From Eggerthellaceae bacterium (GTDB lineage Bacteria; Actinomycetota; Coriobacteriia; Coriobacteriales; Eggerthellaceae), in assembly GCA_022644775.1 (NCBI GenBank), contig JALCHN010000004.1, forward strand, positions 18,172 to 82,171: 64,000 nt of DNA, read 5' to 3'. Every line of letters begins with the position of its first letter. Positions within the stretch are counted from its first letter, which is position 1. The notes below the pieces were generated by a model that saw nothing but the letters and a program-made list of their open reading frames with translations, was not told where the DNA came from and did not search any database. Position numbers and translations under genes: made by a program. This document shows, in pieces, positions 36,731-40,322 of this stretch.

Positions 36731-37636
36731 ATGACTGGTGAAGAAGATTCGCACGGCACCGAAGGCGCGCACGGCATCGCACGCCTGCACTCGGGCAGCA
36801 TGAGCGCGAAGGGCGGCCGCGTGTGGACGGTCGGCGCCCTCGAGCGCGCCCTGCTCGAGCGCTTCCCGGCCGAAGATGCCGAATCCTGGGACCGCACGGG
36901 CCTGCTTGCGGGCGACGCGAGCGCCGGGGTGCGGGGCGTGACAGTGGCGCTCGACCCCACGGTCGAAGCGGTGCGCCAGACGGCTGCCGCCGGCGCCAAC
37001 GTGCTCGTCACCCATCATCCGGCCTTCCTCGACCCGCCTGCGGCCTTCGGGCCCCTCGAAACGGGCGTCACGGGCCCGGGCGCCGTGGTCTACGAAGCCA
37101 TCCACCGCGGCGTGGCCCTTTTGAACTTCCACACCGCCCTCGACGTGAGCGAGCCGGCCGCCCGCATGCTCCCCGGCATGCTCGGGCTCGGCTTGGAATC
37201 CATCCTCGACGTGACCTGCCCTGCAAGCGGCAAGGGCTACGGGCAGGTCTGCTCCTTCGGCGACGCGGCGCCGCTCACCCTGCGTCAGCTCGCGGCCCGG
37301 TGCCTGTCGCTGTTCGGCCGCCCGCCGCGCGTGTGGGGCGACATGGACCGCACGCTCGACCGCGTCGTGACGGCCACCGGGTCGGGTTCCGACCTGCTGC
37401 CGCTCTGCGCCGACCGCGGCATTTCCTGCCTCGTCGCCGGTGAAGTGCGCTATCACGCGGCGCTCGACGCCGCTCAAGCCGGGGTGTGCATCGTCGAACT
37501 CGGACATGACGTGAGCGAGCTGCCGTTATGTGCGATACTTGCCAAGGAAATCGAATCGCTCGGCTTCGGCGACGGCGATATCCGTATACTCGATCAACGC
37601 TCGAACTGGACGGTACCAGAGGCCATTCGGAGGTAA
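36731..37636 (+). CDS. Nif3-like dinuclear metal center protein
   Basis: 'AESWDRTGLLAGD', 'VLVTHHPAFLDPPAAF', 'HTALDVSEPAARMLPGMLGL', 'CLVAGEVRYHAALDAAQAGVCIVELGHDVSEL'. Confidence 0.93.
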   Translation: MTGEEDSHGTEGAHGIARLHSGSMSAKGGRVWTVGALERALLERFPAEDAESWDRTGLLAGDASAGVRGVTVALDPTVEAVRQTAAAGANVLVTHHPAFLDPPAAFGPLETGVTGPGAVVYEAIHRGVALLNFHTALDVSEPAARMLPGMLGLGLESILDVTCPASGKGYGQVCSFGDAAPLTLRQLAARCLSLFGRPPRVWGDMDRTLDRVVTATGSGSDLLPLCADRGISCLVAGEVRYHAALDAAQAGVCIVELGHDVSELPLCAILAKEIESLGFGDGDIRILDQRSNWTVPEAIRR

Positions 37637-37638
37637 TA

Positions 37639-38358
37639 ATGCAGGCAACACCCGAACAGATTCACGCTCTCATCGCGCTTCAGGACATCGACCGCACGCG
37701 GTTGCGCGCGCAGCTCGAACTGAAGAAGCTGCCCCAGCCGGCGCAGATCGACAAGCTGCATGAGCAGAAAGACGGCATCACCGAAAAGCGCGACCAGATC
37801 GCCACGCTGCTCAAACGCGCCGAAGCCCAGCAGATGCGCCTGCATGAAGAGGACGACACGCTCGTGCGCAAGCAGGCGGCCACCCAGGAGCGCATCGAAG
37901 AGCTCAAGGACGACTACCGTTCGGTGACCTCGCTCACGCGCGATTTGGAAGGCATGGCCAAGCGCCGCGAATCGCTCGCCTTCGAGCTCGAGAAGGTCGA
38001 AAAGCGCCTCGCCGAAATCACCCATGCGATCAACGAGGCCGAAAAGGCCCTGTCCGCCATCGCCGACAAAGAGGCCCAGCTGCTCAAGGCCTACCATGCC
38101 CAGGCCGACGATCTGGTGCAGACCGCCCAGGACGCCGAAGCCAAGCGCGGGGACATGGCTGCCCGCGTGCCCGCGGCCCTTTTGCGCACCTATGAAAAGA
38201 CGCTCGCCCGTTGCGGCGGCGTGGCCCTGGCCACGCTGGAAGACGACCATTGCGCCGTCTGCCGCAACGCGATCGAGGCCAACCGTCTGCTGCAGATCAA
38301 GGCCGAAGCCCCCATTTCCGAATGCCCCAACTGCCATAGGATGTTGATCGTCGAATAA
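37639..38358 (+). CDS. Coiled-coil protein with C-terminal C4 zinc ribbon (DUF164/zf-RING_7-like)
   Basis: 'IHALIALQDIDRTRLRAQLELKKLP', long coiled coil, 'CAVCRNAIEANRLLQIKAEAPISECPNCHRMLIVE'; GGAGGT SD before ATG 37639. Confidence 0.92.
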   Translation: MQATPEQIHALIALQDIDRTRLRAQLELKKLPQPAQIDKLHEQKDGITEKRDQIATLLKRAEAQQMRLHEEDDTLVRKQAATQERIEELKDDYRSVTSLTRDLEGMAKRRESLAFELEKVEKRLAEITHAINEAEKALSAIADKEAQLLKAYHAQADDLVQTAQDAEAKRGDMAARVPAALLRTYEKTLARCGGVALATLEDDHCAVCRNAIEANRLLQIKAEAPISECPNCHRMLIVE

Positions 38359-39233
38359 TGGATACCGTTCTCCTCGTCAGCGGCGCGTCGCGCGGCAACC
38401 CGGGGCCGGCCGGCTGCGGGTTCGTCCTCTGCGACGATGCCGGCAACGTGCTCGCCAACGGCGGATGGTACCTTGGCGACGCGACCAACAACATCGCCGA
38501 ATACACGGCCCTGATTTGGGGCCTGCGCAATGCGAGCGCCGCCCATGCCGACGCGGTCGAAGTCTACACCGACTCCCAACTCCTCGTCGCCCAGCTGCGC
38601 GGGTCGTTGAAGGTGCGCACGTCCGACCTGAAGCCGCTCTACCATCGCGCCGAGAAGATGATCGCCGGCCTGAAGGGCTTCACGATCGACTTGGTGCGCA
38701 GGGCCGACAACAAGGACGCCGAAAAGCTCGTCACCGACGCCCTCTACGCCCGCCAGCCGGTGGGCGACTATCTGGTGGGCATGGACGGCCAGCAGGTGTC
38801 GCTGTTCCGCTTGCGCCAGAACGAAGACGAGGCGCCCGCCCAAGCCGAAGACGTGGAAGGCTCGGTGGGCGACTATCTGCACAAGGGCGGCTCCTATGAG
38901 CTCACGGTGAAGAGCCGGCTCGAAATCGTGCGCGACGGCGCGTCCCAGAAGTGGAGCGTCGAGGCGATGGTCGAAGGCCTCGAGCTCGACGGCGAGGGCC
39001 GCATCATCTCGCTCGAGGACCTGCAGTACGACCTGTCCTGCGCAGTGCAGCTCTTCGACGGGCGCGAAATCAAGCACATTGCGCCCTTCAACCGCATCGA
39101 GCCCACGATGGAGCACCTTGCCCGCGTGCTCTACTGGGAGCTCGACAAGATGCTGCCCGACACGGTGCGGCTTGTGCAGGTGGGCATCTGGTCGTCGGCA
39201 GTCGGCGCCAAGATGCTCTATCGCGCGCGGTAG
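38358..39233 (+). CDS. RNase HI-like domain (apparently degenerate catalytic acids) fused to a QueD/PTPS-like C-terminal domain
   Basis: N-terminal 'LLVSGASRGNPGPAGCGF...ATNNIAEYTALIWGL...YTDSQLLVAQL...RADNKDAEKLVTDAL'; C-terminal 'GRIISLEDLQYDLSCAVQLFDGREIKHIAPFNRIEPTMEHLARVLYWELDKMLPDTVRLVQVGIWSSAVGAKMLYR' aligns by eye with E. coli QueD. Confidence 0.8.
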   Translation: MDTVLLVSGASRGNPGPAGCGFVLCDDAGNVLANGGWYLGDATNNIAEYTALIWGLRNASAAHADAVEVYTDSQLLVAQLRGSLKVRTSDLKPLYHRAEKMIAGLKGFTIDLVRRADNKDAEKLVTDALYARQPVGDYLVGMDGQQVSLFRLRQNEDEAPAQAEDVEGSVGDYLHKGGSYELTVKSRLEIVRDGASQKWSVEAMVEGLELDGEGRIISLEDLQYDLSCAVQLFDGREIKHIAPFNRIEPTMEHLARVLYWELDKMLPDTVRLVQVGIWSSAVGAKMLYRAR

Positions 39234-39254: not shown

Positions 39255-40322
39255 ATGTACGTGGTGCACAGGCAAGAGCTCGAGGCGCGCGAACATGAGG
39301 CGCTTTCCCCCGACGCGTCCTTTTCCGAAGACACCGAAGGCCGCATGCACAGCTGCGACCCCGACGATCTGCGCACCGAATACCAGCGCGACCGCGACAA
39401 GATCATCCACTGCAAGGCCTTCCGCCGCCTGTCGCACAAGACCCAGGTGTTCTTGGCGCCCATGGGCGACCACTACCGCACCCGCCTCACGCACACCCTC
39501 GAAGTCGCGCAGATCTCCCGCACGATCGCCCGCGCCCTGGCCCTCAACGAAGACCTCACCGAGGCGATCGCCCTGGGCCACGACCTGGGCCACACGCCCT
39601 TCGGCCATGCGGGCGAAGACGCCCTCTGCGAATGCCTGGCCCGCGTGACCGGCTGGGACGGCACCGGCGAAGCACCCCGGCTCTTCCACCACAACCTGCA
39701 GAGCCTGCGCGTGGTCGAGCGTATCGAAAACGAGGGGCGCGGGCTCAACCTCACCGCCGAGGTGCGCGACGGGATCGCCTGCCATACGGGCGACCAGCGC
39801 GCCGAAACTCTCGAGGGCCGTGTGGTGGCCCTCTCCGACCGCATCGCCTACGTCAACCACGACGTCGACGACGCTATGCGCGCCGGCATGCTGCTTTCGG
39901 GCGACCTGCCTGCCGGCCCCGTGGCGGTGCTGGGGCCCACCCATTCGGCCCGCATCCAGACCATGGTGGAAGACTGCGTGGCGGCTTCGGCCCAGGCGGG
40001 CGACATCGTCATGAGCCCTTCGGTGTGGGACGCGATGATGGAGCTGCGCGCCTTCCTGTTCGACGAGGTGTATCACAGTCCTTCGGTGGCCGGCGAGGTT
40101 CGCAAGGCCCACCATGTCGTGTCGGCCCTGTTCGGCTACTACTTGGACCATGTCGACAGCGTTCCCGCCGAGTACCGCGACCTTTCCGAAGAGTACGACG
40201 TGCGCGCCGTAACCGACTTCATCGCCGGCATGACCGACCGCTACGCCATCCATCTCTACGAGAGCCTCTTCGTCCCGCGGTCCTTCGTGGGCGACGAGAG
40301 CCTCGAAATTTCTGGAAATTAA
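39255..40322 (+). CDS. dgt: dGTPase-like HD-domain deoxynucleoside triphosphate triphosphohydrolase
   Basis: 'RDRDKIIHCKAFRRLSHKTQVFLAPMGDHYRTRLTHTLEVAQISRTIARALALNEDLTEAIALGHDLGHTPFGHAGE'. Confidence 0.95.
   Translation: MYVVHRQELEAREHEALSPDASFSEDTEGRMHSCDPDDLRTEYQRDRDKIIHCKAFRRLSHKTQVFLAPMGDHYRTRLTHTLEVAQISRTIARALALNEDLTEAIALGHDLGHTPFGHAGEDALCECLARVTGWDGTGEAPRLFHHNLQSLRVVERIENEGRGLNLTAEVRDGIACHTGDQRAETLEGRVVALSDRIAYVNHDVDDAMRAGMLLSGDLPAGPVAVLGPTHSARIQTMVEDCVAASAQAGDIVMSPSVWDAMMELRAFLFDEVYHSPSVAGEVRKAHHVVSALFGYYLDHVDSVPAEYRDLSEEYDVRAVTDFIAGMTDRYAIHLYESLFVPRSFVGDESLEISGN

Follow-up and report, generated by a model that had tools for sequence, protein, structure and literature searches.

An RNase HI–pterin synthase fusion of Coriobacteriia that has lost the catalytic residues of both domains and is probably a conserved double pseudoenzyme

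The window, which is the whole stretch of DNA analysed here, spans 64,000 nucleotides of the genome of an Eggerthellaceae bacterium (G000). At the centre of the locus lies a single open reading frame, which according to the open reading frame list and its translation encodes 291 residues plus stop (Table 1). It is preceded by a DUF34/NIF3 gene and a gene for a CT398-like coiled coil protein with a C4 zinc ribbon. The stop codon of the zinc-ribbon gene overlaps the start codon of the fusion by one base (TAATG), both in the window genome and in G071, the second genome of the window's genus (g1). In G052, which represents the sister genus g21, stop and start overlap likewise, but the fusion begins with GTG. 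The order NIF3, zinc ribbon, fusion is kept in nearly all loci examined. An HD-domain dNTPase-like gene follows downstream, and the original prediction had suggested that its product might act jointly with the fusion. Among the loci examined, this gene adjoins the fusion in the two g1 genomes alone and is absent from that place in G052 and elsewhere. It is thus probably unrelated to the fusion, and cooperation between the two proteins is not supported, as the neighbour is not conserved.

Table 1. Coordinates of the features at the fusion locus and of the second queD-rnhA pair in the window genome.
Feature	Position	Strand	Basis or remark
DUF34/NIF3 gene of the conserved neighbourhood	36731..37636	+	
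CT398-like coiled coil + C4 zinc ribbon gene, upstream partner	37648..38358	+	ribbon match slightly under cut-off
Fused protein	38358..39233	+	ORF, Pfam
RNase HI (RVT_3-type) domain, residues 1-130	38358..38747	+	Pfam RVT_3, Foldseek 4e19/3hst, alignment
S8 codon AGC, site of first catalytic Asp	38379..38381	+	D in 25/25 intact relatives
E122 codon GAA, site of last catalytic Asp	38721..38723	+	D in 25/25 intact relatives
Linker, residues 131-178	38748..38891	+	model confidence, dN/dS
PTPS/QueD-like T-fold domain, residues 179-291	38892..39230	+	Pfam PTPS, Foldseek, alignments
HD-domain dNTPase-like gene	39255..40322	+	
CExxHGH queD followed by E. coli-type rnhA (L033)	G000:C8:46997-47848		

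The N-terminal half of the fusion is matched by the Pfam families RVT_3 (residues 9-127, E 4.9e-18) and RNase_H (residues 6-78, 8e-7), and the C-terminal half by PTPS (PF01242, residues 198-280, E 1.5e-8); each match exceeds the curated cut-off. The nearest solved sequences are those of Halobacterium RNase H1 (4e19) and the RNase H domain of Rv2228c (3hst). AlphaFold2, supplied with an alignment of 28 orthologues, modelled the whole fusion with a mean pLDDT of 89, and the T-fold domain alone reached 94. The linker is the fastest-evolving part of the protein, and its residues 152-169 fall below a pLDDT of 50. In Foldseek searches, the RNase H domain model matched 4e19 with a TMt of 0.95 and 3hst with up to 0.96. 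The T-fold model matched human PTPS, Pyrococcus PTPS and E. coli QueD (4ntk) with TMt values of 0.73-0.90 and E values down to 4e-8. As profile and structure matches are independent of each other and cover both halves, a chance match can be excluded. Pfam, AlphaFold and Foldseek therefore bear out the predicted fusion of an RNase HI with a PTPS/QueD T-fold, including its C-terminal half, where a T-fold had been recognised by eye.

A known analogue of this architecture is the mycobacterial RNase HI-CobC fusion Rv2228c/MSMEG_4305 (PMC4429107, PMC7466739). There, an N-terminal RVT_3-type RNase HI is likewise joined to an enzyme of cofactor biosynthesis, but the partner is a CobC phosphatase, whereas the window protein carries a PTPS T-fold and has lost its catalytic residues. 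In line with this difference, the window protein scores 116 bits against NF005567 (RNase HI-CobC, PRK07238/Rv2228c type) and thus fails the cut-off of 326 bits. The expectation that this Nif3-zinc-ribbon neighbourhood would hold a C-terminal partner other than CobC therefore proved correct, the partner being PTPS. In the open literature searched, a fusion of RNase HI with PTPS was not described in any paper that we found.

Alignments confirm that both active sites of the window protein are eroded, as had been predicted. In the RNase H domain, the catalytic set D-E-D-D reads S8-E48-D72-E122, and H112 is altered as well. The serine codon, D72 and E122 had been identified correctly; the retained glutamate is indeed present, but it is residue 48 rather than 49. 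In the T-fold domain, the zinc/cysteine (CxxxHGH) loop is deleted, and the histidine of the FDH motif and the glutamate of the WES motif are replaced (H235G, E279S). Compared with QueD (6-carboxytetrahydropterin synthase, PTPS-I), with which it shares the T-fold (Foldseek TM of ~0.77 to E. coli 4ntk), the domain therefore lacks the zinc ligands, the catalytic cysteine, the LDH histidine and the terminal glutamate. It scores 18.3 bits against the TIGR03367 equivalog model and fails the cut-off of 89.25 bits, while three intact relatives reach 98-106 bits. The suggestion that the T-fold binds a pterin or nucleotide is weakened by the absence of the loop, the zinc ligands and the pterin-anchoring glutamate. 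The codons for S8, E122 and S279 are identical in the diverged G071 (dS ~0.52), which rules out sequencing errors at these positions.

Other parts of the RNase H surface are retained. Residues G13, N14, P15, G16, N44, N45 and S73 are unchanged in every eroded copy of the alignment, and position 74 of the fusion's RNase H domain is a glutamine as in E. coli. The GNPG loop, the NN pair and the S/Q positions are those that in E. coli and human RNase H1 contact the 2'-OH groups and backbone of the RNA. Since these residues also serve folding, their retention is no proof of nucleic-acid binding. Nor does the RNase H domain carry a raised net positive charge, which would have been a further sign of such binding.

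To place these losses, the fusion was compared across the class Coriobacteriia, where one operon position holds rnhA and queD either as overlapping genes or as a single fused gene. The alignment comprises 28 fusions. In 25 of these, which come from other genera and families, both active sites are complete (D-E-D-D and C/HGH/H/E), and the remaining three (the two g1 genomes and G052) are eroded. The fusion is thus widespread in the class, as the original prediction had left to be checked; S8 and E122 are confined to g1, and erosion as such to g1 and g21. Within the window's family, intact fusions (D-E-D-D, C/HGH/FDH/WES) occur in three other genera (g36, g43 and g46). One of the carriers is Raoultibacter timonensis (g36), whose fusion (L081) resembles the window protein in architecture and operon position. 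The intact Coriobacteriia fusions share 34-43% identity with the window protein, and both active sites are complete in the intact form only. Order-wide, the intact fusion is common in families f7-f9, and in many genomes of the class rnhA and queD are separate genes that adjoin or overlap. An example of the unfused state is found at L096:5908-6845, where rnhA and queD are read in different frames and share ~46 bases. In g27, g13 and g17, the locus holds an intact T-fold alone.

Where examined, genomes with the intact fusion or pair appear to encode no other RNase HI. Genera g36, g43 and g46 contain neither a further RNase HI nor a further PTPS match. In other families, 23 of 24 genomes have one RNase HI match. 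In the fused genomes its position coincides with the fusion, and in the unfused genomes compared it adjoins queD, except for G425, where the two genes lie on different contigs. This class-wide linkage of rnhA and queD is exposed here, and we found no description of it.

Genomes with the eroded fusion present a different picture. G000, G071 and G052 each carry, in addition, a separate tandem of a PTPS/queD gene (CENLHGH) and an intact E. coli-type rnhA, and no genome without this second pair was found to carry the eroded fusion. The separate QueD is a longer protein that is only distantly related to this family of T-folds, with 27-34% identity to the intact fused domains. Its CExxHGH motif is that of the PTPS-I/III hybrids, which can serve both queuosine and folate synthesis and, like PTPS-III, bypass FolB (PMC5041015); the T-fold of the window protein is without this motif. 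Searches of G000, G071 and G052 gave no FolB. A CExxHGH queD followed by an E. coli-type rnhA, an order opposite to that of the fusion, is found in G071, G052, G047, G048, G049 and G034 as well as in the window genome. RNase HI and QueD-type genes have become neighbours twice, in different subfamilies.

The eroded set comprises three known sequences from two genera. These form one clade in the protein tree (support 100/100), and g1 and g21 are sisters in the tree of neighbour genes (support 100). The C-terminal half has 48 columns without variation among the intact fusions. At least one eroded copy departs from 26 of them, and in 12 the two genera share one altered state, deletions counted as a state. 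The common changes include H187R, D218S, F219L, K223Q, H235G, A251M and E279S. This pattern is most simply explained if the T-fold chemistry was lost once, in the common ancestor of g1 and g21. The RNase H changes differ between the genera (D8S and D122E in g1, E48A and D122N in g21), which suggests that RNase activity was probably lost twice, independently in each genus.

Between G000 and G071 (dS 0.52), the dN/dS of the fusion is 0.087 (codon bootstrap 0.048-0.149). By region, the RNase H part has 0.057, the T-fold 0.085 and the linker 0.185. The overall value falls within the range of the neighbour genes (0.066-0.182), and two pairs of intact fusions gave 0.118 and 0.206. No stops or frameshifts interrupt the eroded gene in any of the three genomes. 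Judged by these sequence measures, the eroded fusion is under strong purifying selection and is a kept protein rather than a decaying one; a pseudogene is rejected in view of the dN/dS of 0.087 and the absence of stops. In a rough comparison, which involves different models and long branches, the stem branches of the eroded clade, scaled to neighbour genes, appear several-fold longer than the corresponding branches of intact fusions, while the tips within g1 do not appear lengthened. A burst of change that gives way to constraint is more in keeping with an altered function than with decay.

Taken together, we propose that a redundant bifunctional enzyme has been turned into a conserved double pseudoenzyme, a reading to which we assign a probability of about 0.6. 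The ancestor would have combined an RNase HI with a PTPS-I-type (CxxxHGH) pterin synthase, a form that many Coriobacteriia have kept intact. In the ancestor of g1 and g21, a separate CExxHGH pterin synthase and an E. coli-type RNase HI would have taken over both activities; a causal role of the second pair in the erosion is inferred from the co-occurrence of the two. The zinc/cysteine loop and the pterin-binding residues of the T-fold would then have been lost once, and each genus would separately have lost RNase H catalytic residues. An initial period of rapid change would have given way to strong purifying selection on the protein, in a translationally coupled operon that also encodes NIF3 and the CT398-like zinc-ribbon protein. 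In its present form, the RNase H fold may bind but not cleave an RNA/DNA hybrid or a similar nucleic acid, and the T-fold may act as an oligomerising scaffold.

The loss of both sites in a protein under purifying selection supports a non-catalytic role as its likeliest fate, which is what the original prediction had envisaged. What this role might be can be suggested only tentatively: the protein could be a regulator that binds hybrids or RNA together with NIF3 and the CT398-like protein, its former pterin pocket rebuilt as a conserved surface. This surface would include R187, R215 and the G-I-W-S-S-x-x-G-A-K stretch. Hybrid binding by the eroded RNase H fold, taken by itself, is rather doubtful.

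Alternatively, the fusion may have become a regulatory subunit of the separate enzymes, its T-fold assembling with QueD, its RNase H domain in competition with RNase HI, or both. T-fold enzymes are homo-oligomers of repeated subunits, the fold of the eroded protein is predicted by AlphaFold2 to be intact, and the restriction of the eroded form to genomes with a second queD-rnhA pair is consistent with such a scheme. The low identity and greater length of the separate QueD, however, speak against co-assembly, and we consider this alternative improbable. We regard it as very unlikely that the T-fold alone is dead and that RNase H activity survives with the help of an alternative acidic residue (E122, D72 or E48 with a shifted metal). 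Three acidic residues do remain in g1, and constraint is strongest in the RNase H part of the protein, but to our knowledge the first aspartate (D10 in E. coli) is required in known RNases HI. Moreover, H112 and D122 are changed besides it, an intact RNase HI is encoded elsewhere in the genome, and the loss of another essential residue in the sister genus (E48A) would be odd if activity had been kept. That a redundant gene is simply decaying and is kept by chance or operon position is hardly credible: both functions are encoded elsewhere and the stem branches change faster than neighbour genes, but the low dN/dS, the uninterrupted frame, the changed residues common to two genera and the clean departure of a dispensable RNase H half in the genera with a T-fold alone all argue against it.

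The double pseudoenzyme reading makes the locus a natural case of a two-domain enzyme that lacks either catalytic site and is still strongly selected, with the intact, unfused and replaced states all preserved among its relatives.

The pathway served by the intact T-fold can be approached through its partner enzymes. Of 25 genomes of the class, all contain FolE and FolK, and FolB was found in none. QueC had no match in 24 genomes of other families, those with unfused, adjacent or overlapping rnhA and queD included, and the six intact-fusion genomes of the window's family gave weak partial matches only and none of full length. A queuosine role of the intact fusion is thus disfavoured. As the searches gave FolE and FolK but neither FolB nor full-length QueC, the place of FolB may be taken by the fused PTPS-I-type domain, and we infer that it may serve folate rather than queuosine. 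Its motif is CxxxHGH rather than ExxHGH, which would make it an atypical folate enzyme or place it in another pathway. This suggests that in Coriobacteriia a QueD-like enzyme may serve a pathway different from that of queuosine, most likely that of folate. Full QueC matches were obtained in G000, G052, G047 and G048. G071 (99% complete) has a CExxHGH QueD but, unlike its congener G000, no full-length QueC match, which leaves the pathway of its second QueD uncertain.

A further observation concerns G065, a member of the window's family with a genome of 1.1 Mb and 38% GC. No tRNA was found in 39 kb of this genome. Its RNase HI gene (L027:1486-1920) contains five in-frame TGA codons, which fall at positions typically occupied by tryptophan in RNases HI and suggest that TGA encodes tryptophan in G065.
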